The notes beneath the pieces are model-generated. The model saw nothing but the letters and a program-made list of their open reading frames with translations. It had not been told where the DNA came from and searched no databases. A DNA stretch of 64,000 nt, from contig NZ_JAGIOR010000001.1 in NCBI RefSeq assembly GCF_017876795.1, positions 4,676,501-4,740,500 on the forward strand, given 5' to 3'. Made by a program: the position numbers and the translations under genes. Shown here piece by piece: positions 44,273 through 64,000 of the stretch. Numbering within the stretch: the stretch's first letter is position 1; each line of letters opens with the position of its first letter. The DNA comes from Rhizobium leguminosarum. GTDB lineage: Bacteria; Pseudomonadota; Alphaproteobacteria; Rhizobiales; Rhizobiaceae.

Positions 44273-45271
44273 ATGCTGACAGGTCAATCGATCCTCATTA
44301 CCGGCGGCACCGGGTCGTTCGGCCATGCATTTCTTCCAATGACACTCGAACGTTATAATCCGCGCCGCATCATCGTGTATTCACGCGACGAAATGAAGCA
44401 GTGGGAAATGGCCAAGAAATACAGTGCCGACAAGCGAGTGCGCTTCTTCATTGGTGATGTGAGAGACCGGGAGCGGCTGTACAGAGCGCTCGACGGGGTC
44501 GATTACGTCGTTCATGCAGCGGCAACGAAGATAGTGCCGACAGCGGAATACAACCCCTTTGAGTGCATCAAGACCAACATCAACGGCGCCATGAACGTCA
44601 TCGACGCCTGCATAGACCGCGGAGTAAAGCGCGTCGTTGCACTGTCGACGGACAAAGCCAGCAGCCCGATCAACCTGTACGGCGCAACCAAACTCGCTTC
44701 CGACAAGCTTTTTGTAGCGGGCAACTCATATTCGGGTGGACATCGCACACGCTTTGCCGTGGTTCGCTATGGAAACGTCATGGGATCGCGCGGCTCGGTC
44801 ATTCCGTTCTTCCTCTCCATCAAGGACAAAGGTGTGCTGCCCATCACCGACCCGCGCATGACCCGGTTCATGATCACGCTTGAACAGGGTGTGGAACTGG
44901 TCTGGCACGCTTTCGACGACATGGAAGGCGGCGAGATCTACGTCAAAAAAATCCCTTCAATGAAGATGGTGGATCTAGCCGCCGCCGTTGCGCCGGAAGC
45001 TCAGATAGAAATTGTCGGTATCCGCCCAGGCGAGAAAGTTCATGAACAGATGATTGGTGAAGAAGACTCTTTCTACACCTACGAATATAGCGACCATTTC
45101 AAGATACTGCCTGCAATCAATAATTGGGGCACCAGCGCGGAGCGCATAAAGGACGGGGTGAAAGTCCCGGAAGGCTTCAGCTATACGAGCGACAACAATA
45201 AGGAATGGCTGAGCGCTGTCGCTCTCCAGTCCTGGATCGAGCAAAATCGCCTAAAGATCGGAATGATATGA
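44273..45271 (+). CDS. pseB: UDP-N-acetylglucosamine 4,6-dehydratase (inverting)
   Basis: 332 residues. Extended-SDR fold: NAD motif ILITGGTGSFGHAF, VHAAATKIVP, and the catalytic K-x-x-D region STDKASSPINLYGATKLASDK (Tyr and Lys of YGATK), then VRYGNVMGSRGSVIPFF. PseB-type enzymes dehydrate UDP-GlcNAc at C4/C6 and invert C5 to the L-arabino product, the first step to pseudaminic acid-type sugars. The stop overlaps pseC by 4 bp (ATGA). Confidence 0.93.
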   Translation: MLTGQSILITGGTGSFGHAFLPMTLERYNPRRIIVYSRDEMKQWEMAKKYSADKRVRFFIGDVRDRERLYRALDGVDYVVHAAATKIVPTAEYNPFECIKTNINGAMNVIDACIDRGVKRVVALSTDKASSPINLYGATKLASDKLFVAGNSYSGGHRTRFAVVRYGNVMGSRGSVIPFFLSIKDKGVLPITDPRMTRFMITLEQGVELVWHAFDDMEGGEIYVKKIPSMKMVDLAAAVAPEAQIEIVGIRPGEKVHEQMIGEEDSFYTYEYSDHFKILPAINNWGTSAERIKDGVKVPEGFSYTSDNNKEWLSAVALQSWIEQNRLKIGMI

Positions 45272-46437
45272 GTTCCTCCATTCCCTATGGCAGACAGGAT
45301 ATCAATGATGCGGATATCGACGCAGTCGTTGCCGTTCTGAGATCTGACTTTCTGACGCAAGGTCCTGTCGTGCCTCGCTTCGAGCAAGCGGTCGCATCCT
45401 ATTGCGGTGCACTCCATGCTGTTGCGGTGAACAGCGCGACCTCGGCGCTCCACATTGCCTGTCTCGCTCTCGGACTTGGTCCCGGTGACTTGCTTTGGAC
45501 AAGCCCGATCACGTTCGTAGCATCCGCCAATTGCGCTCTATACTGTGGCGCTGATGTCGACTTCGTCGATATCGACAAGGACAGCTACAATCTTTCGCCG
45601 GCAGCGCTCGAGCAAAAATTGCTGGAAGCAGAGCGAGCGGGACGCCTGCCGAAGGTGGTCGTCGCAGTCCATCTGACCGGGCAGCCCTGTGACCTTGCGG
45701 CGATCCATGCTTTGGCACTTCGTTATGGCTTTGCCGTTATCGAGGATGCATCGCACGCGATTGGAGGTCGCTATCTCAACGAGCCCATCGGCAACTGCCG
45801 CTATAGCGACATCACGATATTCAGCTTTCATGCTGTAAAAATCATCACCTCGGCAGAGGGCGGAATGGCCGTTACCAACGAACCAGAACTCGCCCATAAG
45901 ATGCGTCTGCTTCGTAGCCATGGCATCACGCGCGAACCCGACAGGATGACGCAACAGCCGGACGGGCCATGGTACTATCAGCAGATAGATCTCGGCTATA
46001 ACTACCGCATGACCGAGTTGCAGGGCGCGCTGGGATTAAGCCAGATGGATCGTCTGGACAGCTACGTCTCCAAGCGCCATCAATTGGCGAGACGTTATAA
46101 CGACGCGTTCAGCAACTTGCCTGTGATCACGCCCTGGCAGCATCCTGACGGATATTCCGCACTGCATCTCTACGTCATTCGCGTCCAATCGGGGGAGATC
46201 GGGAAGAGTCACAGGGAAATTTACGATTCGCTGCTGAAGCAAGGTATTGGCGTGAACCTCCATTATATCCCGGTGCACCTGCAGCCCTATTACCATCGTA
46301 TGGGCTTTCAACGGAACACCTACCCGGAAGCCGAAGCTTATTACTCAGAGGCCATAACCCTTCCGATGTACCCAACGATGACTGATGCGCAGCAGGAACA
46401 GGTTATCGTGGCGTTGCGGGAAGCCGTTACCGCATAA
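45268..46437 (+). CDS. pseC: UDP-4-amino-4,6-dideoxy-N-acetyl-L-altrosamine transaminase
   Basis: 389 residues from the ATG at 45268. DegT/DnrJ/EryC1 aminotransferase: VNSATSALHIACLALG, VIEDASHAIGG (the Asp that contacts the PLP ring), PLP-lysine loop ITIFSFHAVKIITSAEGGM and LGYNYRMTELQGALG. It acts on the PseB product with glutamate. No pseH, pseG, pseI or pseF follows; the next genes run on the other strand. The pair may therefore only supply a 4-amino-4,6-dideoxy sugar for O-antigen. Confidence 0.92.
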   Translation: MSSSIPYGRQDINDADIDAVVAVLRSDFLTQGPVVPRFEQAVASYCGALHAVAVNSATSALHIACLALGLGPGDLLWTSPITFVASANCALYCGADVDFVDIDKDSYNLSPAALEQKLLEAERAGRLPKVVVAVHLTGQPCDLAAIHALALRYGFAVIEDASHAIGGRYLNEPIGNCRYSDITIFSFHAVKIITSAEGGMAVTNEPELAHKMRLLRSHGITREPDRMTQQPDGPWYYQQIDLGYNYRMTELQGALGLSQMDRLDSYVSKRHQLARRYNDAFSNLPVITPWQHPDGYSALHLYVIRVQSGEIGKSHREIYDSLLKQGIGVNLHYIPVHLQPYYHRMGFQRNTYPEAEAYYSEAITLPMYPTMTDAQQEQVIVALREAVTA

Positions 46438-46705
46438 GGCTGCCGATCCTCTGATCGAGGACGGCGGATATTACCTGGCAGGCGGCGCGCCTGCCATCTC
46501 GGACGCCACCTTCACTGCCCCCAAACCATCAATTCCTACCGCAGAGATGAACCTCGCGGCAACATCCTGCGCGCCTGGATCTTCCATCATCGATGACTCT
46601 ATTTTTCAGCGATTGAGCTCCAGTAACTGCAATCCCAGGAACATCCGGCCCCGCACTCGGTTTCAAGCGTGATCTCGTGAACATCGGCCGGTACGGCGAA
46701 ACTCT

Positions 46706-48946
46706 CTATCTGCTCGCCACGATCGGCCTGTACAGCGGCTGGATCGAGACATCTTTGCACGAGGGTCTGCTTTCCATTTCAAAGAAACATACGCCATCCG
46801 TGTGACCACCATCTTGCCAGCCGCCAGGCCGTATGCCGAACGAGAGCGATATCTTCGATGAGGGTGTCACCGGTAGACGCAGTACAGTCGGCGCATGGGC
46901 CTGAAGTCCCTCGGGCACCCGAGAAACAGTCGTCCCGTTCAGAGCGTTCATGCGCAAAAGGGGGAGAATTTTTTTATCGCGTTGCAGGGCGTTTTCTACG
47001 ATCGGCCCGCCGGAAGCCTCTCTGAGGACATCCTTGTCGAGCTCCGTAAAAGTCACCGTAATCGCCGATTGATAGAAAAGACCATTCCCGATCCCCGTCT
47101 TGATCTTGACCGACTGCGCGTGCTTGAGATCCGGGTAATCCGAGTGCCCGGAGGAAACCTTCAAGTATGCAACAGGGTCGACAACCAGCGGCGAAACAAG
47201 AAAACCCTTACCTGCCATCCCGGGTATCAGCCGGTAGACGCCGGTTGATCCATCGGAGTAATTGACGGATATCTGCGACATCGGTGGTCGGTAGATCAGG
47301 TCCGCCAGGCGCCCAAGAAGGGTTGGCCGCATGTCGACTGCGATCATGACCGGGTTGTCTGTTTTCGGCAGCGGAACATCCTGGCCGAGTTCCATCGGAA
47401 CCGCGATATCCTGCTTTTTCACGCCCGATACCGCGGTCGGACGCTTCCGCAATATGATCTGGCGATCGGTTTCGATAAAAGGCTCATATTTGGCAAAAAA
47501 TAGCGGCCACAGCGCTCCCTCGGCGGAAGCTGGATGGCGTCCGTCGATCGAGCCTGGGGCCATTATCAGGTATTCCGGTGCTTCAGGGCCTTCATAAAAG
47601 GCTCGATCGCGCTCAATCAATTCTGGTGTATAGGAGGTGTATTCCTGCACAGTCGGACGGGGACGGTAGTCGAGGCCATTCCCTATGACATCCGATTGCT
47701 CCGACTGGATAATATCAACGGAACCGTTCAACGCCGGCAGCGGCGTTTTTTTGCGTATGGCAGCCAGAGAGGCGGCATTCTCGCCTTTAAGCTTATCCAG
47801 CCAAACGGTTGGCTGAAACAGAAACTCGCGTCCTCTGGCCAGGCCTTCGGATATCTGTTGCGGCAGCGACGGAACATTTGCGAAAGGCAACGCCTTATAG
47901 GCGACATAAACGGCGGCATAGCTCGGCACAATGCAGACGCAGGCCATCAGGATCAGCGGCTTTTTCCACCGCGTCCCGGCGTAAGCTGATGAAAATCCGA
48001 CCGCTGTAATCGCCATCGCCAACGCGCTCCAGGAGATAAGTGTATGGAGATCATGACGAACAAGCCCAGCCTTGAAGGCAACGAAAAGAAAGCCGGCAAT
48101 GACGAGAGGTCGGGCGATGAGGATGTCGTAAGGCATGCTGCCAGCCCGCGATACGGCATCACGAAGAAGGATCACGATGAACACCACCGCCATTGCGAGC
48201 CAGATTACAAGATCGGCCACGTAGGCGGACAGGCTCATTGCGCTGGAATACCCCCCGGAAACCTGCACGCTTGCGATCAGGAACGCAGGCAACTGCGCCA
48301 GCGGCTGGCCGGAGATTAACAGGCCCGTGTAGAGCCCGGCCGCCATCGCCAGAAAATGCAGTGGAACTCGCCGGCGACGCACCGCCACGATATCAAGCAG
48401 CAGCATAGCCAGTATGGACGCCGGGAACGTGGAAAATTTAGCGAGCGCGAGTATGCCCGATAGATACCCGCATGAAATCGTTACGGGCAGCCCTCGTTTC
48501 GAATCATTCTCGAACCCGTATAGAGCGCCCAGAAGCGGCACCAGCAGCAGGAGAGTGTCCTTGGAAATCATGCAGACAGACAGCAGGACCCAACCTGACA
48601 TCAGGCTGAGGACGTTGCCAGATCTGGAAAAAAGCGACCCTAGCGAAAGAGCCAAGAAGGCGACGATGCCAAGGGATATAATCGCTACCGCGAAGGCGGT
48701 TGTGGGCTCGAACTGCTTGGTATAGATGCTGGATAGAGGGCCGCCCGTAAAGACGAGATCTGTGCCGAACAACAGGTGATGTTCGACACCGTAAGCCAAG
48801 GCTGCCTGCCACGAAGGGTCGAGGCCTGACCGCACCGGATGAAGGGCGAGCGGCTGAAACTTGAGATAAAGACTGACGAACAGCAGCAGAAAACCGACTG
48901 CAGCCATCCACCATGTTTTTCTCGGTTCAGATGTCTTCAACATCAC
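46706..48946 (-). CDS. Large membrane protein, GT-C glycosyltransferase-like, with 3' frameshift
   Basis: 746 residues. The first 370 or so hold 10-12 membrane helices, with SGLDPSWQAALAYG in the first periplasmic loop (an Asp at the usual GT-C position). The last 350 form a soluble, probably periplasmic domain. This is the layout of membrane arabinosyl- or mannosyltransferases. After CFFEME (about 46770) the natural ending KQTLVQRCLDPAAVQADRGEQ ... CSWDCSYWSSIAEK lies in the next frame and stops at 46599-46601. The frame as it stands ends early at 46706. It overlaps the gtrA-like gene by 4 bp and is the last gene of the putative polyprenyl-phospho-arabinose operon. Confidence 0.72.
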   Translation of the reverse strand: MMLKTSEPRKTWWMAAVGFLLLFVSLYLKFQPLALHPVRSGLDPSWQAALAYGVEHHLLFGTDLVFTGGPLSSIYTKQFEPTTAFAVAIISLGIVAFLALSLGSLFSRSGNVLSLMSGWVLLSVCMISKDTLLLLVPLLGALYGFENDSKRGLPVTISCGYLSGILALAKFSTFPASILAMLLLDIVAVRRRRVPLHFLAMAAGLYTGLLISGQPLAQLPAFLIASVQVSGGYSSAMSLSAYVADLVIWLAMAVVFIVILLRDAVSRAGSMPYDILIARPLVIAGFLFVAFKAGLVRHDLHTLISWSALAMAITAVGFSSAYAGTRWKKPLILMACVCIVPSYAAVYVAYKALPFANVPSLPQQISEGLARGREFLFQPTVWLDKLKGENAASLAAIRKKTPLPALNGSVDIIQSEQSDVIGNGLDYRPRPTVQEYTSYTPELIERDRAFYEGPEAPEYLIMAPGSIDGRHPASAEGALWPLFFAKYEPFIETDRQIILRKRPTAVSGVKKQDIAVPMELGQDVPLPKTDNPVMIAVDMRPTLLGRLADLIYRPPMSQISVNYSDGSTGVYRLIPGMAGKGFLVSPLVVDPVAYLKVSSGHSDYPDLKHAQSVKIKTGIGNGLFYQSAITVTFTELDKDVLREASGGPIVENALQRDKKILPLLRMNALNGTTVSRVPEGLQAHAPTVLRLPVTPSSKISLSFGIRPGGWQDGGHTDGVCFFEMESRPSCKDVSIQPLYRPIVASR

Positions 48947-49335
48947 CGGTCGCTCCCGAACGTAAAGTATTTATGGAGAAAGTAACTTGTTGCTATCGGG
49001 CTCAGAACGCCGATCACATGAGCGACTGTTTCCGCATGGAAATTAAAGCCGACAAGCGGAACGACGAAGTGGACAAGTCCGACGCTCACAAGCCAGACCT
49101 GCGCGAATGCCACGAAATTGACAAGGCCGAACCGCAGATATTCATGGCCGACATGCCGCCCCGACTTCTCGAACACGAATATCTTCATCAGCACATAGGC
49201 TGTCGACATGCCGATCAGGTATGCCAGCACGATTGCCGGCGTGTAGTCCATAATCGTCGACAGCGCGATCCGTGAAAGAATATTGGCTGCCGCCGCGATC
49301 CCACCTGACACTGCAAATCGGACGAACGGCCTTGA

Positions 49336-50267
49336 GAGCCTGACCGAAAAAGAGTTGAGTGAAATCAGCCAGTTGTGATTCTGTTTGTTTGCTTAGGACG
49401 AACGGAGACCACAATGGGCTGGACTGATTTCACCCGTCGGCAATATGCCCGACGCACAGTGCGGTATGCAAGCGATCTGACGGACCGGGAGTGGGGATTG
49501 ATCTCGCCTTGCCTGCCTGGACCGAGGCGGTTGGGCAGGCCGCGCAGTACCGATCTTCGCGAGGTCGTGAATGCGTTGCTTTACATCGCCACGACGGGGT
49601 GCCAGTGGCGGATGATGCCCAGAGATTTTCCACCTTTTACAACTGTGCAGTCCTATTTCTATGAATGGCGAGCGACAGGGTTATGGGGTCGGATCAACCA
49701 TCATCTTGTGATGGAGGCGCGTGACTTGGAAGGTCGGGAAGCCTCGCCGTCTGCGGGCGTGATCGACAGTCAAAGCGTGAAAACCACGGAAAGCGGCGGA
49801 ATTTCGGGCTATGACGCGGGCAAGAAGATAAAGGGACGCAAGCGTCATATCGTCGTCGACACGCTCGGACTGATGGTCGGCCTCATGGTTCACAGCGCCG
49901 ATATTCAGGATCGCGACGGCGCGCCTGCGGTTCTCAAAACCATTCTCAAGCGCTGGCCGTGGCTGAGACATATCTTCGCCGATGGTGGTTATGCCGGACC
50001 GAAGCTGAGGGGCGCACTGCAAAAGATCGCTGCGTTCACTCTCCAGATCGTCAAGCGGACCGACAAGGCCAAGGGCTTCGAGGTTCTGCCGCGTCGCTGG
50101 GTAGTGGAGCGCACCTTCGCATGGCTTGGCAGATGCCGACGATTGGCGAAGGATTGGGAAAAGTCCGTCGCCTCAGCCGAGGCCTGGGTCACTATCGCCC
50201 ACATCCGGGTCCTGACACGACGCTTGGCAAGGTACGGATATCGTTGAAACCTTTTCGAGTCAGGCTC
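49336..50267 (+). mobile_element. IS5-family (IS1031-type) element, copy 1, in the gtrA-like gene
   Basis: 932 bp, from GAGCCTGACC to GTCAGGCTC, flanked on both sides by TGA (49333-49335 and 50268-50270), the T-N-A duplication expected of this group. It encodes one intact transposase. Its sequence appears the same as copy 3 at 63185-64000, in the opposite orientation, and is related to copy 2. Confidence 0.93.
49414..50247 (+). CDS. IS5-family transposase (copy 1)
   Basis: 277 residues from MGWTDFTRRQYARRTVRYAS. DUF4096-type N-terminus, then the DDE domain: GVIDSQSVKTTES (first Asp), FADGGYAGPKL (second Asp) and RRWVVERTFAWLGRCRRLAKDWE (Glu in the Y-2-R-3-E-6-R region). It is complete and probably active. 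Confidence 0.95.
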   Translation: MGWTDFTRRQYARRTVRYASDLTDREWGLISPCLPGPRRLGRPRSTDLREVVNALLYIATTGCQWRMMPRDFPPFTTVQSYFYEWRATGLWGRINHHLVMEARDLEGREASPSAGVIDSQSVKTTESGGISGYDAGKKIKGRKRHIVVDTLGLMVGLMVHSADIQDRDGAPAVLKTILKRWPWLRHIFADGGYAGPKLRGALQKIAAFTLQIVKRTDKAKGFEVLPRRWVVERTFAWLGRCRRLAKDWEKSVASAEAWVTIAHIRVLTRRLARYGYR

Positions 50268-50296
50268 TGAGAAAAGGCTGACGACCACGTCCCCGA

Positions 50297-51577
50297 TCAA
50301 GTCAATGCCTCCGCCATATTCCGGCCGTAGCGGACACTTTCTGCAATGCCTCGATCCTCGGGATAGTAATAGCAGGTGTCGGCAATCTGCAGTCCGGCGA
50401 TCGGTGTCTGGATCGGCGGCAGCTTGTCGAGGAAGTTTGGTTCGCAGACAGGCTGCGCGTATTTCAGCCGCCCGACCTTGGCCTCTATGAGGTCGTCCCG
50501 GGTGATCGCCGGATTAACCTTGCGCAGATAACCAAAGGCCTCCTCAACGAACTGGCTGTCGCTCCATTGCCACTTCTCCTGGCTGGTCGGCATATAATAG
50601 GGGACATAGACGATCGTTTCCTTCGCCGGCCGCAAGTTGGAAAACTCGATCAGTCCCGGAATCTCGACGGTTTCATCGACGATGTTGATCCAGAAGTTTC
50701 GGCTGACGGACTTCTTCATTTTGAACAGCAGGCAGACGACGCCGATGTTTCGGATGGCGTCGTATTTCGCTTTCGACTCTTCCGGCAGAGACGGGACAAG
50801 CGTGGAGATATAAGGTGTCGGCACAGTCGAAATGACGGCGTCCGCGGGGAAGAATTTTCCCGCTGCCGTCACTCCCGTCGTCTTGCCTGCTTCGGTCTCG
50901 ATACGCTCCACGGGCATGCCGAGATGGAGACGGCCGCCTTGCGCCGTATAGGCGGAAACAAGGGCATCCACCAGCGTCTGGCTGCCGCCCTCGATGTAAC
51001 CCAGTTCCTCCTGAAAGATGGAACGCCGCGAATTGCCAATGCGCCGGACACGCGTGGCGATCCAGGATGCGGATACGTCGTCCGCGAGCTCATAGAACTT
51101 CAGTTCCATGAGGCGCTTCCACAGCGTGTTGTAGACTTCACGCCCCGAGCCGCCTTCCAGCCACTGTCGGGCCGTCTTCCTTTCGATAGAAGCGAAGCTC
51201 TTCGCCTTGGTGGTCAGGAACATCTGCAGACCGGTGCGGATCTTGGCAATGAGGCTGAGATGCGGGAATTTCAACAGACTGATCGGATCGCCCCAGGAAT
51301 GGATCTTTCCTTTCATGTAGTAGCCCATCGATGTCGGCCGCCAGCGCATGCGATCGCCGATGCCGAGTTCCTTCATCAAGGCAAACGTCGGTTCATCCGA
51401 TTTGCATACGAAATGGTAGAAACGCTCGATCGACACGCCGCCGAAATCGAAATGCGCCGCCATCCCACCCGCGACGGTATCCGCCTCGATGAGATCAACG
51501 TCGTGACCTAAACTCACAGCTCTGTGCGCTGCCGCCAGTCCCATGGCGCCAGCGCCTATAACCACAACCCGGCTCAT
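50297..51577 (-). CDS. FAD-dependent oxidoreductase of the polysaccharide operon
   Basis: 426 residues from the ATG at 51577, with AGGAGAGG just upstream; the longer frame to 51727 is inside the neighbouring gene. Dinucleotide fold VVIGAGAMGLAAAHRA, then EADTVAGGMAAHFDFGG and FYHFVCKSDEPTF, and near the end PIAGLQIADTCYYYPEDRGIAESVRYG, the FAD-closing motif. Resembles the protoporphyrinogen-oxidase/UDP-galactopyranose mutase-like amine-oxidase superfamily. The substrate is unknown; in this operon it may act on a sugar or a polyprenyl-linked sugar. Confidence 0.82.
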   Translation of the reverse strand: MSRVVVIGAGAMGLAAAHRAVSLGHDVDLIEADTVAGGMAAHFDFGGVSIERFYHFVCKSDEPTFALMKELGIGDRMRWRPTSMGYYMKGKIHSWGDPISLLKFPHLSLIAKIRTGLQMFLTTKAKSFASIERKTARQWLEGGSGREVYNTLWKRLMELKFYELADDVSASWIATRVRRIGNSRRSIFQEELGYIEGGSQTLVDALVSAYTAQGGRLHLGMPVERIETEAGKTTGVTAAGKFFPADAVISTVPTPYISTLVPSLPEESKAKYDAIRNIGVVCLLFKMKKSVSRNFWINIVDETVEIPGLIEFSNLRPAKETIVYVPYYMPTSQEKWQWSDSQFVEEAFGYLRKVNPAITRDDLIEAKVGRLKYAQPVCEPNFLDKLPPIQTPIAGLQIADTCYYYPEDRGIAESVRYGRNMAEALT

Positions 51578-51587
51578 CTCACCTCTC

Positions 51588-52520
51588 CTAAAATTCCAAT
51601 ACAATGCTGCTGTAGACCGGATCCAGGTAGCTTTGGCGGATCGCTTCGCGCAGCGGTGTCGGTGAAACATCGAACAATCCCGGCCAGTCGATGACCGGAA
51701 ACGTCTCAGGGATGACGAGAGCCTCAAGCTGGCTGGTCGTAAAGGGAGGCTTGCTGCTGAACTTGCCGTAAACGAACAGCAACAGCCAGAACAGCCGGTA
51801 GGGCACCCGGATGATGCGTGCTCTCGGCTTCACCGTGTCATGAATCATCCGAATCACCTCGCCGTAATAGATCTGCTCCAGCCCGGATATGTCGAAGCTC
51901 CCGACCGGCTTGTTGCGCAGCGACGAGATGATGATGGCTGCGAAATCACCGACATACAGCGGTTGGCGGATGAACTTTCCGTCGCCGGGGATAGGAAAGA
52001 CGGGCACGCGGTCCATGAAACGGCGAAGCCAGCCCAGATGCTTCCGGTCGAACCACCCGAACATCAATGTCGGCCGCAACACGACGTGCGGTATGTCGGT
52101 TACAGTATCGATGAAGCGTTCCTGCGCCGTCTTGGAGCGCGTATAAAAGTCCTCTGCCTTGGAATGCACGACGGATGACGAGATGTGCACGAAATAGGGG
52201 ACGCCGTGCTGGCGCATGGCTGCGACGATCTGCTCGGTGGCCACGACGTTGTTGTCGATGAATTCCTGCTCGTCGAGGCCGCCGATCTGCGCCTGGTTCA
52301 ACAGAACGGCAGTTGCGCCAGCAAAAGCGTCCTTCCACGGACCGTCCACGGCAAGATCGGCTTCGATCACCTCGATTTCGGGGTGAAGCCGGCGAAGCAA
52401 TGCGGTATTGCTCGGATGTTTGTCGATGCCCACGATCTGGAGGCCGGGCTCGCTCTTCAGTCGAGCAATGACGTTCTGGCCGACCAGACCCGCTGCGCCG
52501 GTAATGACTATCTTCGACAT
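51588..52520 (-). CDS. NAD-dependent epimerase/dehydratase
   Basis: 310 residues. Extended SDR: VITGAAGLVGQNVIARL (NAD site), LNQAQIGGLDEQEF, the active-site run HISSSVVHSKAEDFYTRSKTAQ with the Y-x-x-x-K pair, and LRPTLMFGWFDRKH. It probably modifies a sugar nucleotide or lipid-linked sugar. The ATG shares one base with the stop of the SDR gene before it, and the FAD oxidoreductase starts 10 bp after it. Confidence 0.85.
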   Translation of the reverse strand: MSKIVITGAAGLVGQNVIARLKSEPGLQIVGIDKHPSNTALLRRLHPEIEVIEADLAVDGPWKDAFAGATAVLLNQAQIGGLDEQEFIDNNVVATEQIVAAMRQHGVPYFVHISSSVVHSKAEDFYTRSKTAQERFIDTVTDIPHVVLRPTLMFGWFDRKHLGWLRRFMDRVPVFPIPGDGKFIRQPLYVGDFAAIIISSLRNKPVGSFDISGLEQIYYGEVIRMIHDTVKPRARIIRVPYRLFWLLLFVYGKFSSKPPFTTSQLEALVIPETFPVIDWPGLFDVSPTPLREAIRQSYLDPVYSSIVLEF

Positions 52521-53257
52521 CAGATTTCCATCCGGTTGAAAATGGCGCTCGGAAGGTTCCGAATGATCAACATGATGTAGCGCCAGAAGCCTGGCGCATA
52601 CGCCACCGGGCCGCCTCGATACGCACGCGCATGAACGATTGCCGCGACCTGCTCCGGCTTGGCCCAGAGCGCACCCTTGCGGTTCATGCCCTCGGTCATC
52701 GGGGTCATCGTCGGACCGGGTTTGATGAGCACGGCCCGCGGCCCCTTATCGGCAAAACGATGCGCTATGCCGACAACCAGCGCCTCCAGACCGGCTTTCG
52801 ACGCCCCATAGATGAAGTTGGCTCGACGGCCCCTGTCGCCTGCAACCGAACCGATGACAGCGAGCGTGCCGCGGCCCTGCTTCTCGATAATGTTGGCAGT
52901 CGCAAGGCACCACGCAGCAGCCGAGTTGAAATTGACCCGCAGGATGGTTTCCGCGTCGGCCAGATCGCGCTCGGCCTCGCCCTGATTGCCGAGAATGCCA
53001 TAGGCCAGGAGAACGTGATCGACGCCGCCAAGCTGCCTGACGAATGCGTCCAACCGCTGCTCGACGTCAACCGGGTCACCGAGATCGCTGATGGCGACTT
53101 CGGCGGCCTCCGCGCCACGCGCCTTCAGATCCGCTGCAGCTTGCGCCAGACGATTTTCGTCCCGCCCGACCAGCAGCAGGCTCGCACCTTCCGCTGCATA
53201 AAGCCTCGCGGCCGCAGAAGCGATAGCCGAGGTGGCCCCTAAAATGATAACCCGCAA
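52520..53257 (-). CDS. DprE2-like short-chain dehydrogenase
   Basis: 245 residues. Classical SDR: ILGATSAIASAAARLYAAEG (cofactor site, T-S-A-I rather than T-G-x-G), LAYGILGNQGEAE, the IGSVAGDRGRRANFIYGASKAGL active site (Ser, Tyr, Lys) and LIKPGPTMTPMTEG. LGNQ, GDRGRRANFIYG and VKPG-type features are those of DprE2, which reduces the 2-keto intermediate to polyprenylphosphoryl-arabinose. It directly follows the DprE1-like gene (11-bp gap), as in mycobacteria. Confidence 0.85.
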   Translation of the reverse strand: MRVIILGATSAIASAAARLYAAEGASLLLVGRDENRLAQAAADLKARGAEAAEVAISDLGDPVDVEQRLDAFVRQLGGVDHVLLAYGILGNQGEAERDLADAETILRVNFNSAAAWCLATANIIEKQGRGTLAVIGSVAGDRGRRANFIYGASKAGLEALVVGIAHRFADKGPRAVLIKPGPTMTPMTEGMNRKGALWAKPEQVAAIVHARAYRGGPVAYAPGFWRYIMLIIRNLPSAIFNRMEI

Positions 53258-53268
53258 TGGAGCCCCCT

Positions 53269-54603
53269 TTACTCTTGCGACACACGCTTCCAGAAATGTG
53301 AACTGAACCCGCTGTCTACGTATTTAGCGAAGTCCTGCCAAGCCGGATAACCGGCCTTGAACATTCGTGCCGACATACGGCCGTCCTTGGCGGGGTAAAG
53401 CCGACCTCCCGCCTCCAGCACGATATCGTCGAGCCGAGCCATCAGCCTCAGGGTCGTCTCGCCATGATTTGGAAAATCCAGGGCCAATGTCGTGCCCGGT
53501 CGCGGGAAAGACAGCATTCCCGGCGAGGCAACCGCGCCAAATGTCTTGAGAACGGCTAGAAAGGACCCCTGCCCGCTGGCGGAGATGGTCTTTAGCATTT
53601 CTTTCGTGGCGTCTTTCTCGACGGCTGGCGGCACCACCGACTGGAACTGATACATTCCCTTGCTGCCATACATCCGGTTCCAGCGCCCGATGGAATCGAG
53701 CGGATAGAAGAACTGATATATCGGTATGTTCTGCCTCCCGGCCTTTCGCTTGCCGTTCCGGAAATACAGCGAATTGAAAGCGCTGATCGAATAACGATTC
53801 ATGCAGAGGCGGGGAAGGCTGAGCGGCATCGTGAACTTGGTGTTCCCGCGGCCGGGCAAGCGAGAGCCGGTCTTTGCGTGGTTGCCACGCGTGAAAATTC
53901 CGCGGCCCAGGGACGCGCCTTTTGCGAGGCAATCGATCCAGGAGACCGTGTAATCGAACGCGTTGTCGCTCTCGGCCGCCAGGGAGAAGAACATGTCGAG
54001 ATTGTCAAAGGGAATGTTTTCGGCGTCCATGACCGCGCTCTCGTTCGGCAGGACCTCCAGCTCAACCCAGGTTATTGCACCGGTCAGCCCCAGGCCGCCG
54101 ATCGTCGCCGAAAACAGCTGGGGATCGCTTTCGAGCGTCAGCTCAAGTTCCTCGCCGTTGGAGCGCATCAACCCGATCCTGCGGACCCAGCGCCCGATGG
54201 TGCCGTTGATATGATGGTTCTTGCCGTGAACGTCGTTTGCGACGGCGCCCCCCATCGTCACGAAACGCGTGCCGGGTGTGACAGGGAGAAAGGATCCCTG
54301 GCGGACGATAACCCCGAGCAAGGCATCGAACGACAAGCCTGCTTCCACCCGAACAAGGCGGCGCTGGGGATCAAAGCTGATGATCCGGTCGAGACCGGCC
54401 ATATCAATCAATCCGCCTTCGGGATTGAGGCCATTGTCACCATAGGAGCGGCGCAGGCCCGTCGCCAAAAGCGCTCGCCCTTCCTGGCGGCCGGACAGCA
54501 CGATGCGGGGAAGCTGGTCTCGCCAGGCAGGAAAAGCTGCATGGTGTTCCGCTTGCAGCACGTTACCCCACGAACGGACGTCGGCCGGCTCGAATCTGGT
54601 CAT
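53269..54603 (-). CDS. DprE1-like FAD oxidase (polyprenylphosphoryl-ribose 2'-epimerase subunit)
   Basis: 444 residues from the ATG at 54603, which overlaps the UbiA stop by 4 bp (ATGA); the open frame to 55002 is a shadow. FAD domain: RSYGDNGLNPEGGLID, VTPGTRFVTMGGAVANDVHGKNHH, GGLGLTGAITWVEL. The C-terminal substrate domain has YQFFYPLDSIGRWN, PGMLSFPRPGTTLALDFPNHG and GGRLYPAKDGR. The layout and motifs match mycobacterial DprE1. Where that enzyme has NICVDFP with the inhibitor-target Cys, this one has TLALDFP, so the Cys is replaced; the Lys of Y-x-A-K-D is kept. Confidence 0.87.
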   Translation of the reverse strand: MTRFEPADVRSWGNVLQAEHHAAFPAWRDQLPRIVLSGRQEGRALLATGLRRSYGDNGLNPEGGLIDMAGLDRIISFDPQRRLVRVEAGLSFDALLGVIVRQGSFLPVTPGTRFVTMGGAVANDVHGKNHHINGTIGRWVRRIGLMRSNGEELELTLESDPQLFSATIGGLGLTGAITWVELEVLPNESAVMDAENIPFDNLDMFFSLAAESDNAFDYTVSWIDCLAKGASLGRGIFTRGNHAKTGSRLPGRGNTKFTMPLSLPRLCMNRYSISAFNSLYFRNGKRKAGRQNIPIYQFFYPLDSIGRWNRMYGSKGMYQFQSVVPPAVEKDATKEMLKTISASGQGSFLAVLKTFGAVASPGMLSFPRPGTTLALDFPNHGETTLRLMARLDDIVLEAGGRLYPAKDGRMSARMFKAGYPAWQDFAKYVDSGFSSHFWKRVSQE

Positions 54604-55376
54604 AGTGCGACCAGGAACAAAATCGCGACGACGACACCAAGACCCGCGCTGATACGGTCGCGAATGGCAAAGCTGACCGGGTCGTCGTTCATCTTCCCCC
54701 GGTGAGCCAGAAGCCAGATTCGGCCAAGCCAAATCGACAGCATGATCGGAATTCCACCCAGGAACTGCGGAGAGGAATAGGCTTTGCCGGGCAACATTTC
54801 CTGCAAGACGAAGATCATCAGGACGACGAGCGATGCCAGGGCGGCCCCGATACCGAGCGAAAGCGTCAAAGGCGCGTCCTCGATTTCGTAACCGCGACTC
54901 TTGAGACTCAGGGAGCCGCTGGTTGCTGCCCGAACAATTTCCGTATGACGCTTGGCCACGGCCAGCGAAAAGAACAGGAACACTGCGAAGGTCAACAGCC
55001 ACGCCGGCTTCGAACTCTCGAGCAATACCGTCCCCATGATGAGGCGCGTCGTGAAAAGTATGCCAATAATAAGCGTGTCAAGCAGCGGAACCCGCTTCAA
55101 GCCCAGCGAATACGCGCCCGTTATCACCAGATACGCAAGGAGCGCGAGCGTGAATTGCAGGGACAGCAGGGTCGCGAAAAAGAAACCGCCTACCAGCAGC
55201 CCACCGGCAAGCATGAAGCCGGCCCGGATCGACAGCTTGCCGCTGGCCAAGGCCCTGTAGCGTTTCGACCAATGCTGACGATCCGTATTGAGGTCGGCGA
55301 TGTCATTGAGCAAATAGGTGGCAGAGGTGACGGCCAGGAGACAGGCGAATGCTGAGATGGTTTGCAGAATGAGTAA

Positions 55377-56309
55377 GAGGCTGCCCCAAAAAGATATGAG
55401 TGATTTCAGCCAGTTGTGATTCCCTCGGATTTGCGAAGATTCGATGGAGTGCACAATGGCCTGGACTGAAACCACCCGACAGCAATATGTCCGTCGGACG
55501 AGCCGATATGCAAGCGATGTTACCGATCGCGAATGGGAATTTATTGCGCCGTTCATGCCCGCGCCACGGCGCCTGGGCCGGCCACGCAAGACCGATCTGC
55601 GCGAGGTTTTAAACGCCCTTCTCTATATCGCTTCGACAGGCTGCCAGTGGCGGATGCTGCCGAAGGACTTTCCGCCCTGTTCAACGGTGCAGCGGTATTT
55701 CTATGAATGGCGGGCAATGGGTCTTTGGCCACGGATCAACCACCACCTCGTCATGGAGGCACGGGAGCTGGACGGGAAGGAAGCTTCACCGACGGCTGGC
55801 GCCATCGACAGCCAAAGCGTCAAAACTACTGAAAGCGGCGGTATTCGGGGCTTTGATGCGGGTAAGAAGATCAAGGGCCGCAAGCGCCACATCATTGTTG
55901 ATACGCTCGGGCTGATGGTCGGCCTCATGGTGCACAGCGCTGATATCCAGGACCGCGACGGCGCTCCCGATCTCCTGAAATCTATCCGCAACCGATGGCC
56001 GTGGCTCCTTCATGTCTTCGCCGATGGCGGCTATGCGGGCGACAAGCTGAAAAAGCGGCTGCAGAAAATAGGAAAATGGACACTCGAAATTATCAAGCGT
56101 ACCGACAAGGCCAAGGGTTTCGAAATCCTGCCGCGCCGCTGGGTCGTCGAGAGGACGTTCGCCTGGCTGGGACGATGCAGAAGATTGGCCAAGGACTTCG
56201 AGACATCCATCGCTTCAGCAGAAGCCTGGATAACCATCGCTCACATCCGAATGCTCACCAGGCGGCTGGCAAGATACGGATATCGTTGAAACCTTTTCGA
56301 GTCAGACTC
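55377..56309 (+). mobile_element. IS5-family (IS1031-type) element, copy 2, in the HAD-UbiA gene
   Basis: 933 bp from GAGGCTGCCCC to GAGTCAGACTC, flanked by TAA on both sides (55374-55376 and 56310-56312). It is related to but clearly different from copies 1 and 3, so it is a second IS species of the same group. Confidence 0.93.
55456..56289 (+). CDS. IS5-family transposase (copy 2)
   Basis: 277 residues from MAWTETTRQQYVRRTSRYAS. Same domain plan as copy 1 (AIDSQSVKTTES, FADGGYAGDKL, RRWVVERTFAWLGRCRRLAKDFE) with many substitutions. All DDE residues are present; complete. Confidence 0.95.
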   Translation: MAWTETTRQQYVRRTSRYASDVTDREWEFIAPFMPAPRRLGRPRKTDLREVLNALLYIASTGCQWRMLPKDFPPCSTVQRYFYEWRAMGLWPRINHHLVMEARELDGKEASPTAGAIDSQSVKTTESGGIRGFDAGKKIKGRKRHIIVDTLGLMVGLMVHSADIQDRDGAPDLLKSIRNRWPWLLHVFADGGYAGDKLKKRLQKIGKWTLEIIKRTDKAKGFEILPRRWVVERTFAWLGRCRRLAKDFETSIASAEAWITIAHIRMLTRRLARYGYR

Positions 56310-57212
56310 TAAGACGTTGGTCCATTCATGGGCCAGAATCAGTGGAACAAAAAGAAGAATGTTCTTGGTCCAATGATGAACGCGGATGGCCTTCAAGAAC
56401 TCCCTGAACTTCAGTGACGGCGTATGAAATTCGGCGATTACCGGCAGGTTGCGGCGCTTGAGCTCTCGCGACACACTTTGACTGACGCCGGCGGGCACGG
56501 CGCCCTTTGACGCCTGCCAGACATGCAGGTCCGCCGCATGGTCACCGACATAGATGAAGCCGTCAGGAAAGCGACCTTCGAGATAGAGCGCCTTGGCTTT
56601 GCCTTTCAGATTTGTGCTTGAAGAGCCGACGGCCGACGCGAATATGCCGACTCTTTTCGCGACCGCGTCTACTACGGATTGATTGGCGGCCGAGCAGAGA
56701 TGGAGTTCATGCCCCTCTTCTGCCTTGCTGCGCAACCATTCGACGAGATCCTCCCGAAGCGGCAACACCTCGTGGGTCAGGTCGACTTCTTTCGCGATGG
56801 CAGCCTTCAGTTCATGGCGGCCCTTCACAAGCTGTGTCAGCGCGTGAACCAGAACCAGCGGTTTACGAAAAAGCGCAACTGCAGCGGACTCATGCAAGGT
56901 ATCCGACAGGATGAGCGTACCATCCAGATCCACAACGATAGGCAATTTCGATTCTGGGTTCAGATAACCGTCAAACAACTGATTTGAAGTTTCCATGACA
57001 CCTAAGTCTATTTTTTAGCCGAGCATTCGCTATACGGAATCCCGACACCCAATATCAACAATGATTCTGGCCTAACACCTGTCACGCGCGGTCCAATAAC
57101 ACACCAATCGGGTTGTGGCGATCTGCAACGCCCCCCGAAGCGGACTGTCCGGCGATTGGAATAGCATATTTCGTCGCTAAAGGCGGTCGCCCACCAGCAC
57201 GCCTCCGACGAA

Positions 57213-57354: not shown

Positions 57355-58107
57355 CTACCCGAGCGACTTGGTGTAAGCCGCAAGGACATCGTCGATCGCG
57401 CCACGCATCCGCATGCGACCGTGCTCCATCCAGAGGCCCTCTTTACACCATGCCCGTAACAGATCGTTCGAGTGAGACGCCATCACCAGAATTCCAGCGT
57501 TGGAAATGAAAGTGCGCATCCGTTCCTGCGCCTGGGCAAGAAATGCCGCGTCGCCTGCGCCGATACCCTCATCGATAAGCAGTATCTCCGGCTTGATCGA
57601 TGTCGAGATCGCGAAGGCAAGCCTTGTCGACATGCCGGCGCTGTAAGTGCGAAGCGGCATGTCGAGAAATTCGCCCAGCCCCGTCAAAGCACCGATCTCC
57701 TCTGCGCGGGCCTCGATCTCCTTGCGGCTGTATCCGAGATACATTCCCCGCAGAATGATGTTTTCCCAGCCACTTGACTCGGGATCCATACCGAAGCCGA
57801 TGTCGAACATCGATGCGACTTCGCCGTCGATCTCCGCTGTTCCGATCGATGGTTCGTAGATGCCGGCCATCACCCGCAGGATTGTCGATTTTCCTGCGCC
57901 GTTGTGGCCGAGCAAGCCGAGGCGCGTGCCATGTTCGATATCCAAAGTCAGACTTTCGATCGCCCGAATCACGACCGAACCGGTGCCTTCACGGGGCTTT
58001 ATCTGTCCGCCTGTGGCTGAAGCGAGAATACTGTTCTTCAAAGAACGATGGCTGGCGCCGTAGATCGGAATGTCGACCACGACATTCTTCAGAGAGATTT
58101 TAGCCAA
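57355..58107 (-). CDS. Polysaccharide ABC exporter, ATPase (Wzt-like)
   Basis: 250 residues. Walker A GHNGAGKST, signature YSAGMSTRLAFAIS, Walker B EILLIDEGIGAGDAAF, H-loop VMASHSND. This is the TagH/KpsT/Wzt class that powers export of lipid-linked polysaccharide across the inner membrane. It has no C-terminal carbohydrate-binding domain, so it is a short Wzt. It starts 3 bp after the permease stop and is the last gene of its operon. Confidence 0.93.
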   Translation of the reverse strand: MAKISLKNVVVDIPIYGASHRSLKNSILASATGGQIKPREGTGSVVIRAIESLTLDIEHGTRLGLLGHNGAGKSTILRVMAGIYEPSIGTAEIDGEVASMFDIGFGMDPESSGWENIILRGMYLGYSRKEIEARAEEIGALTGLGEFLDMPLRTYSAGMSTRLAFAISTSIKPEILLIDEGIGAGDAAFLAQAQERMRTFISNAGILVMASHSNDLLRAWCKEGLWMEHGRMRMRGAIDDVLAAYTKSLG

Positions 58108-58110
58108 GAA

Positions 58111-58932
58111 TTAGCTCCAATAGACGACGCGTGCGCGGTAACGGGCGAAAAAGACCGTAGCGATCGCGCCAAGGGCAATCGTAATGCCGATACTCGCCGT
58201 CCAGTTGAGTGCAGTGCCCGTTTTTCCGAGCAAGGGATCCCGGATGATTTCGATAAAATGATAGAAGGGATTTGCAGTCAGGACCCATGCGCGCCTTGGC
58301 ATCTGGTCGGCGCTCCAGATGATTGGGGTCATGAAGAAAACGATTTGCATAACGCTTCCAATGATCATCGGCACGTCGCGAAACCGCGCGCATAGCGGAC
58401 CGAGTATCATCGATATAAAAAATCCACTTAAGACAACAAGAAGGAGCGCCGGAAAGAACAGAAGGACATTCCAGCCCGGGTTCATCAGAAATACAACGGC
58501 GATAATTATATATACTAGAAAGTTATGCGCAAAAACCAGAAGCTGACTCCAGATGAACTGGAAGATAAACATGCTGACCGGCATCCTGATCTGCCGCATG
58601 GCCCCACCGGCAACGCTGAATATCCTGCATGCCCCGATGATAATTCCGTTGATCAGGCCCCAGACGATGAGACCTATCGCAAGCCTGGGCAGGTAATTCG
58701 CGACATCGATCTTCAATATTTCGGAATAAAGCACGCCGAGACCAAGAACCATCATTCCCATGGAAAGTGTCAGCCACAACGGACCTATGATGGAGCGGCT
58801 GTATTGCGACTTTATCTCCCGCCAGCCCAGGTAGAGCCATAATTCACGCTGGTCGAACCCGCCACGGATATCATCCAGCGCACGCATGGTATTGCTTTTA
58901 GCTCGCGTCGCCATCGTGCTCTTCTCGATCAT
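58111..58932 (-). CDS. Polysaccharide ABC exporter, permease (Wzm-like)
   Basis: 273 residues from the ATG at 58932; 58914 is an alternative and the frame to 58983 looks non-coding. ABC2-type permease with six membrane helices. ELWLYLGWREIKSQYSRSIIGPLWLTLSMG is the amphipathic interface helix and first membrane helix typical of Wzm/TagG, and FMTPIIWSADQMP is the conserved periplasmic motif. It partners the ATPase 3 bp downstream. Its presence says the polymer of this locus is built in the cytoplasm and exported whole. Confidence 0.92.
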   Translation of the reverse strand: MIEKSTMATRAKSNTMRALDDIRGGFDQRELWLYLGWREIKSQYSRSIIGPLWLTLSMGMMVLGLGVLYSEILKIDVANYLPRLAIGLIVWGLINGIIIGACRIFSVAGGAMRQIRMPVSMFIFQFIWSQLLVFAHNFLVYIIIAVVFLMNPGWNVLLFFPALLLVVLSGFFISMILGPLCARFRDVPMIIGSVMQIVFFMTPIIWSADQMPRRAWVLTANPFYHFIEIIRDPLLGKTGTALNWTASIGITIALGAIATVFFARYRARVVYWS

Positions 58933-59015
58933 GCTGTTCCATCGCTGTCTCCTGGCGCAGGGGCCGCGACCGCGCGATGGCAATCGTAAACTTCAATTTT
59001 TTGTCCATCCGGATG

Positions 59016-63184: not shown

Positions 63185-64000
63185 GAGCCTGACTCGAAAA
63201 GGTTTCAACGATATCCGTACCTTGCCAAGCGTCGTGTCAGGACCCGGATGTGGGCGATAGTGACCCAGGCCTCGGCTGAGGCGACGGACTTTTCCCAATC
63301 CTTCGCCAATCGTCGGCATCTGCCAAGCCATGCGAAGGTGCGCTCCACTACCCAGCGACGCGGCAGAACCTCGAAGCCCTTGGCCTTGTCGGTCCGCTTG
63401 ACGATCTGGAGAGTGAACGCAGCGATCTTTTGCAGTGCGCCCCTCAGCTTCGGTCCGGCATAACCACCATCGGCGAAGATATGTCTCAGCCACGGCCAGC
63501 GCTTGAGAATGGTTTTGAGAACCGCAGGCGCGCCGTCGCGATCCTGAATATCGGCGCTGTGAACCATGAGGCCGACCATCAGTCCGAGCGTGTCGACGAC
63601 GATATGACGCTTGCGTCCCTTTATCTTCTTGCCCGCGTCATAGCCCGAAATTCCGCCGCTTTCCGTGGTTTTCACGCTTTGACTGTCGATCACGCCCGCA
63701 GACGGCGAGGCTTCCCGACCTTCCAAGTCACGCGCCTCCATCACAAGATGATGGTTGATCCGACCCCATAACCCTGTCGCTCGCCATTCATAGAAATAGG
63801 ACTGCACAGTTGTAAAAGGTGGAAAATCTCTGGGCATCATCCGCCACTGGCACCCCGTCGTGGCGATGTAAAGCAACGCATTCACGACCTCGCGAAGATC
63901 GGTACTGCGCGGCCTGCCCAACCGCCTCGGTCCAGGCAGGCAAGGCGAGATCAATCCCCACTCCCGGTCCGTCAGATCGCTTGCATACCGCACTGTGCGT
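63185..64000 (-). mobile_element. IS5-family (IS1031-type) element, copy 3, running off the window
   Basis: It starts GAGCCTGACTCG at 63185, preceded by TAA (63182-63184), the likely target duplication; the other end is beyond 64000. Sequence looks identical to copy 1 in reverse orientation. Confidence 0.93.
63205..64000 (-). CDS. IS5-family transposase (copy 3), start beyond the window
   Basis: At least 265 residues, identical as far as can be compared with the transposase at 49414-50247. All DDE residues are present. The first dozen or so residues (MGWTDFTRRQYA) would lie beyond base 64000. Confidence 0.94.
   Translation of the reverse strand, partial: RTVRYASDLTDREWGLISPCLPGPRRLGRPRSTDLREVVNALLYIATTGCQWRMMPRDFPPFTTVQSYFYEWRATGLWGRINHHLVMEARDLEGREASPSAGVIDSQSVKTTESGGISGYDAGKKIKGRKRHIVVDTLGLMVGLMVHSADIQDRDGAPAVLKTILKRWPWLRHIFADGGYAGPKLRGALQKIAAFTLQIVKRTDKAKGFEVLPRRWVVERTFAWLGRCRRLAKDWEKSVASAEAWVTIAHIRVLTRRLARYGYR

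Follow-up and report, generated by a model that had tools for sequence, protein, structure and literature searches.

Introduction

The mycobacterial decaprenylphosphoryl-D-arabinose pathway comprises UbiA (Rv3806c), DprE1, DprE2, Rv3789 and the Emb/Aft proteins. Homologues of UbiA, DprE1 and DprE2 are encoded in a 64,000-nt stretch of Rhizobium leguminosarum (GCF_017876795.1, contig NZ_JAGIOR010000001.1), here called the window, to which all coordinates refer unless another locus is named. They belong to a six-gene module, HAD-UbiA, dprE1, dprE2, epi, fad and gtrA, after which the gene of a GT-C-like transferase follows; Epi is a short-chain dehydrogenase/reductase (SDR) of the epimerase/dehydratase family and FAD an amine-oxidase-like flavoenzyme. 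The locus is probably a decayed module whose product would serve as donor for decorating an exported surface glycan in the periplasm: DprE1 and DprE2 would yield arabinofuranose (Araf), and Epi and FAD would add a second tailoring step.

In Gram-negative bacteria, three-component systems already join HAD-UbiA, a flippase and a GT-C transferase, and candidate systems for Araf-containing glycans include DprE1/E2 homologues (Kelly et al. 2024, PMC11127046). The biochemistry of HAD-UbiA and GT-C has been published for Citrobacter (PMC11127046). In rhizobia, noeCHOP was linked by genetics to the arabinosylation of Nod factors (PMC5080398), and a Devosia, of the same order, makes D-arabinan (PMC8707391). 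Because these systems have been published, the module counts as a variation on a known type.

The first-pass annotation had described the operon as mycobacterial-style. However, the Gram-negative HAD(PRP)-UbiA three-component system, with its HAD phosphatase fused to UbiA, is a closer published arrangement than the mycobacterial set (PMC11127046). The window shares this fusion with the Citrobacter youngae O1/O2 ORF12-15 system, where it makes polyprenyl-phosphate ribofuranose (polyprenyl-P-Ribf), and shares with the systems of Kelly et al. a sugar-converting SDR or DprE1/E2, a flippase and a GT-C enzyme with a C-terminal carbohydrate-binding domain, which serve O-antigen decoration there (PMC11127046). 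In contrast to the MATE flippase and the single epimerase (for xylofuranose) or DprE1/E2 (for Araf) described in that paper, the window has a putative flippase of the GtrA family and DprE1/E2 together with Epi and FAD. The transferase of Kelly et al. is a GT136 enzyme with a carbohydrate-binding module (CBM) (PMC11127046). That of the window, GT-C-like with a CBM51-like end, is likened to it by predicted fold. The noeCHOP/noeN systems of Azorhizobium and Rhizobium sp. IRBG74 are, by description, rhizobial UbiA/DprE1/DprE2 homologues for D-arabinofuranosylation, but their acceptor is the Nod factor, noeN is a separate phosphatase candidate, the transferase is NoeP, and the description drawn on here mentions no Epi or FAD (PMC5080398). 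Beyond its homologous UbiA, DprE1 and DprE2, the window resembles mycobacteria in a GT-C-like transferase whose structural matches include EmbB and, by family name alone, in a GtrA-family protein, the family to which the first-pass annotation assigned Rv3789. It differs in having a fused HAD domain in place of an Rv3807c-type 5-phosphatase, two added enzymes and an alanine in place of a DprE1 cysteine.

Composition of the module

A minus-strand run at 46.6-57.0 kb encodes, in transcription order, HAD, UbiA, DprE1, DprE2, Epi, FAD, GtrA and a 746-aa membrane protein (Table 1). Seven genes had been proposed at this place and in this order, and Pfam and NCBIfam searches matched the predicted families for all but the 746-aa protein; profile searches and solved-structure homologues likewise bore out the proposed homology to DPPR synthase, DprE1 and DprE2. 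The gene order is more than chance, because the same order was found in R. anhuiense (locus L005) and in other genera. The probable starts of DprE1 and FAD (54603 and 51577) fall within longer mechanical open reading frames (ORFs).

Both halves of the split HAD-UbiA gene matched the HAD-UbiA model NF006088. The second half of this model was the best match of the UbiA half (296 bits, against a cut-off of 351 for the whole model), followed by the NCBIfam decaprenyl-phosphate phosphoribosyltransferases, and the best PDB sequence match was DPPR synthase 8j8j (E 9.7e-15), with which the NDxxDxxxD motif was aligned. The two halves retain the HAD aspartate and NDxxDxxxD, and in R. anhuiense the gene is an intact 488-aa ORF, which marks it as a HAD(PRP)-UbiA fusion. 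By sequence, the UbiA domain is of the DPPR-synthase class.

The DprE1 model NF053785 was by far the best for the oxidase, and the DprE2 model NF053786 came second for the reductase after PRK07102 (cut-off 267). We regard the two proteins as homologues rather than certified equivalogs because they scored under the curated NCBIfam cut-offs (365.8 of 500 bits and 170 of 250 bits). Alignment of the oxidase with the solved DprE1 4aut showed that flavin- and substrate-site residues were kept, including those at the positions that we take to be Y60, H132, K134, Q336 and K418 of DprE1. The cysteine of the mycobacterial motif NVCVDFP, presumably C387, to which benzothiazinones bind, is an alanine in this alignment.

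All 24 aligned Epi rows retain the glycine motif and the S-Y-K residues. FAD matched PF01593 and exceeded the NF005560 cut-off (517 bits, cut-off 252). Database names for FAD, among them protoporphyrinogen oxidase and UDP-galactopyranose mutase, were rejected as an argument.

GtrA, the putative flippase, matched PF04138, and no MATE-family flippase was found among the 10 operon-region proteins scanned with Pfam. The 746-aa protein had no match in Pfam or NCBIfam; its predicted structure showed the GT-C-like fold that had been anticipated, and EmbB and ArnT were among the proteins that this structure matched. An invariant Asp after the first transmembrane helix (TM1) was seen in 40 sequences, the transferase has a CBM51-like C-terminal end, and a natural GtrA-transferase fusion exists (P0024).

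Distribution and conservation

A search for related loci returned 15, of which nine (L005-L011, L013 and L015) carried HAD, UbiA, DprE1, DprE2, Epi, FAD and GtrA. In L010 and L013 there was an extra gap ahead of gtrA, and L015 and L026 proved to be one contig. In L014 Epi and FAD lay close to the end of a contig and neither UbiA nor a DprE was visible, and in L012 and L016-L019 a transferase relative was present, with no module seen in the available locus DNA. Intact, collinear operons were found in other genera as well as in R. anhuiense, of which CCBAU 23252 is a strain with the complete operon. In all nine full loci epi and fad lay between dprE2 and gtrA, and in eight of them Epi and FAD both resembled their counterparts in the window more closely than did UbiA and DprE1; between R. 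anhuiense and the window, UbiA, DprE1, Epi and FAD were all 95-98% identical.

We also surveyed 297 genomes of the order (Rhizobiales), counting FAD orthologues at 59% identity or more. Epi was present in 10 genomes and FAD orthologues in the same 10, DprE1 in 44, and the HAD-UbiA query was matched in 74. All 10 genomes with Epi and FAD carried DprE1 and a HAD-UbiA match, with DprE2 adjoining DprE1. Epi and FAD were both absent from all 34 genomes that matched HAD-UbiA without matching DprE1, and present in 10 of the 40 that matched both. Because Epi and FAD were confined to these 10 genomes, always with DprE1, DprE2 and HAD-UbiA, a second tailoring step is suggested. The view that the two enzymes are an addition to the mycobacterial set was supported, and no description of their addition to the module was seen in the literature listings.

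FAD was matched at 1e-100 in 7 of 72,556 plasmid records. In each of the five plasmid loci opened (L077-L080 and L082), one of them on a conjugative Agrobacterium plasmid, genes for UbiA, an FAD-binding oxidoreductase, an SDR, an epimerase, the FAD enzyme and GtrA were consecutive. L078, on a Burkholderia stagnalis plasmid, does not look like an O-antigen locus: close to its module lay a transferase relative and a gene of the isonitrile synthase family. Some loci were irregular: L022 had no visible GtrA, L023 and L024 were two places in one genome, HAD-UbiA was reversed after gtrA in L028, a transferase relative stood between DprE2 and Epi in L047, and L049 had extra intervening genes.

Twenty membrane-protein candidates were picked, 17 beside Epi/FAD modules and three from sister loci; the L007 row had one in-frame stop, and one L080 ORF had a single predicted transmembrane segment. 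Several of them formed at least three groups without mutual BLAST similarity (L005-L006-L007-L009-L078-L079, L028-L029-L077 and L021-L080), the others being single. Wherever TM1 was recognised in a row of these groups, which excludes L009, an Asp came shortly after it. We interpret this pattern as a constant donor module that is combined with interchangeable transferases. In L006 (10001-14760 of that locus), two tandem GT-C-like transferase copies, 81% identical, follow the module.

Proposed pathway and the possible role of Epi and FAD

Since the combination of HAD-UbiA, flippase and GT-C matches the logic of the pentofuranose systems described in 2024, there are good grounds for predicting that polyprenyl-phosphate D-Araf is made here as donor for a glycan of the cell surface in strains with an intact operon, and such a donor would not be new in kind. 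DprE1 and DprE2 would invert C2 to give polyprenyl-P-D-arabinofuranose, on which, or on the DprE1/E2 intermediate, Epi and FAD together may act in a second tailoring step; the lipid-linked sugar would then be flipped and transferred to the glycan in the periplasm. What was observed is the gene content and order, the motifs, the predicted folds, the co-occurrence and the lesions. Everything as far as Araf, together with flipping and transfer, is inferred from published relatives, while it is co-occurrence that suggests that Epi and FAD tailor the lipid-linked sugar, and what the final sugar may be. If such tailoring takes place, lipid-linked sugars can be modified stepwise after attachment, the chemistry of DprE1, a tuberculosis drug target, extends to diverse Gram-negative surface glycans, and rhizobiologists gain a testable source of between-strain surface-glycan variation.

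The boldest form of this reading, which we put forward tentatively and consider doubtful, is that Epi and FAD are a second oxidase/reductase pair that follows DprE1/DprE2 and inverts C3, giving polyprenyl-P-D-lyxofuranose or another pentofuranose beyond arabinose. Kelly et al. note that lyxofuranose is absent from all solved carbohydrate structures and suggest, as a possible reason, that C2 and C3 would both have to be inverted (PMC11127046). If this form is right, the product would be a glycan donor without known example. A conserved, partly plasmid-borne module that combines a C2-inverting pair with a second putative redox pair offers a specific target for the search.

The alternative that survives best, although we think it unlikely, is that the module ends at plain polyprenyl-P-D-Araf and that Epi and FAD are accessory, acting on the acceptor sugar, in cofactor recycling or in a more efficient route to Araf. 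Nineteen of the 44 DprE1 loci had DprE1 and DprE2 but no Epi/FAD orthologues, hence Araf should need no more, and the D-arabinan of Devosia points the same way (PMC8707391). However, accessory roles sit poorly with the restriction of Epi and FAD to the same 10 genomes, their fixed place in the nine full loci and their conservation above UbiA and DprE1 in eight of these. There is very little chance that FAD acts like UDP-galactopyranose mutase, turning a lipid-linked pentose from furanose to pyranose while Epi adjusts a stereocentre. Least probable of all is an action of Epi and FAD on the polyprenyl chain instead of the sugar: the FAD fold is shared with isoprenoid-acting flavoenzymes such as phytoene desaturase, and relatives of FAD (about 32% identity) neighbour a GT2 and an LPG_synthase_TM protein, but a pair that tailors the lipid would be expected in genomes with HAD-UbiA and no DprE1 as well, and none of the 34 genomes of that kind had it. 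These FAD relatives stand without Epi beside the GT2 (PF00535) and LPG_synthase_TM (PF03706) genes in L050 (9355-12740), L051 (9417-12770) and L052 (9800-13068).

Sister types and the DprE1 tree

The 44 DprE1 loci of the order included 10 with Epi and FAD and the 19 with DprE1 and DprE2 mentioned above. Five of these 19 (L053, L062, L065, L073 and L074) had a weak SDR match to Epi close by (39-45 bits), and at L055 an aminotransferase was weakly matched (119 bits) roughly 5 kb away. Another 12 loci (L030-L033, L035, L037, L038, L056, L063, L067, L071 and L072) carried a class III aminotransferase and HAD-UbiA, with DprE2 not beside DprE1; L067 had a weak DprE2 match (42 bits) several kb off. 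In this type an EamA-type small transporter gene was present in 11 of 12 loci and an SDR in 10 of 12. L036 had the SDR and EamA genes with no aminotransferase seen, and L034 and L070 fitted no type. The aminotransferase was nearest to PigE (343 bits, under the cut-off of 850); it is predicted to aminate the 2-keto product of DprE1 to a lipid-linked 2-amino-2-deoxy-pentofuranose. No description of this type was seen in the literature listings either. Should these readings hold, DprE1 would be the entry to a family of lipid-linked pentofuranoses: Araf, further-modified Araf and 2-amino-2-deoxy-pentofuranose.

A DprE1 tree of 56 rows, built by a quick method with SH-aLRT (Shimodaira-Hasegawa-like approximate likelihood ratio test) support only, placed the DprE2-only type on one side of a branch with support 100. 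The Epi/FAD type needed three changes and the aminotransferase type (including L036) four, and none of 500 shuffles gave as low a number for either.

Decay of the copy in this strain

An insertion sequence (IS) element of the IS5 type (about 55376-56314) separates HAD from UbiA, a second (about 49335-50272) interrupts gtrA some 10 codons into the gene, and a frameshift near codon 721 leaves the transferase at 746 aa, against about 782 aa in its relatives. The R. anhuiense locus is uninterrupted at both IS sites, with a GtrA of 140 aa and a transferase of 783 aa. No other member of this UbiA class that could act as a spare first enzyme was found in the genome, where at 1e-25 the only match to the HAD-UbiA query was the IS-split gene in two pieces. 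The three other UbiA proteins of the genome, scanned as their matched stretches of 240-252 aa, matched heme O synthase in one case and 4-hydroxybenzoate octaprenyltransferase in two (one below the cut-off). Three genes of the operon (UbiA, gtrA and that of the transferase) are thus broken and no substitute for UbiA was found, and a functional operon in this strain was rejected. Most likely the pathway fails already at the first enzyme, and synthesis of the sugar by this strain is not to be expected. The broken copy illustrates how such a pathway gets lost.

A review of undecaprenyl-phosphate sequestration lists E. coli gtrA and gtrS, and not gtrB, as sequestration-associated, and reports that ubiA-null corynebacteria survive benzothiazinones (PMC12826051). 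In that light, the lesion in UbiA may be what renders those in gtrA and the transferase harmless. A third IS5-type transposase lies at 63205-63993, with a Pfam make-up like that of the two in the operon.

Locus layout and flanking genes

The Wzm/Wzt exporter named by the first-pass annotation does adjoin the operon.

Table 1. Positions of the module, its insertions and the exporter genes in the window.
Feature	Position	Strand	Evidence
HAD phosphatase domain, 5' part of HAD-UbiA gene, IS-cut	56315..56996	-	PF12710 42.3 bits; DLDGT motif; NF006088 positions 8-222
IS5-type element within HAD-UbiA gene	55376..56314, ends approximate	+	transposase 55444-56289, DDE_Tnp_1 + DUF4096
UbiA-type polyprenyl-phosphate phosphoribosyltransferase domain, 3' part of HAD-UbiA gene	54600..55375	-	PF01040 80.5 bits
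DprE1-like FAD oxidase (2'-oxidase), 444 aa	53269..54603	-	NF053785 365.8 bits; 4aut 269 bits
DprE2-like SDR reductase, 245 aa	52520..53257	-	NF053786 170 bits; PRK07102 243.8 bits
Epi, NAD-dependent epimerase/dehydratase-family SDR, 310 aa	51588..52520	-	PF01370 74.6 bits
FAD, PRK07233-type amine-oxidase-like flavoenzyme, 426 aa	50297..51577	-	PF01593; NF005560 517 bits
Second IS5-type element, within gtrA	49335..50272, ends approximate	+	transposase 49375-50247
GtrA-family putative flippase, gene remainder 3' of IS	48943..49334	-	PF04138 56.5 bits for 48943-49311
GT-C-like polyprenyl-phospho-sugar glycosyltransferase (putative), 746-aa ORF, frameshifted in C-terminal CBM51-like domain	46706..48946	-	
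Wzt-like ATPase of ABC glycan exporter	57355..58107	-	NF050108 galactan Wzt 317.5 bits, cut-off 400
Wzm-like permease of ABC glycan exporter	58111..58983	-	NF050109 galactan Wzm 279.3 bits, cut-off 380

Genes of the pseudaminic-acid type flank the module in the window (44273-46564) and in R. anhuiense (12358-13515 of L005). The next genes past the transferase in the window are pseC and pseB (NCBIfam, 562.6 and 538.8 bits, over the cut-offs), and in R. anhuiense pseG follows the transferase directly (NCBIfam PseG, 294.6 bits, cut-off 153.6). About 1 kb of pseG is missing from the window, and similarity to R. anhuiense breaks between 46547 and 46564. The pse genes adjoin the module in L079 and L082 also.

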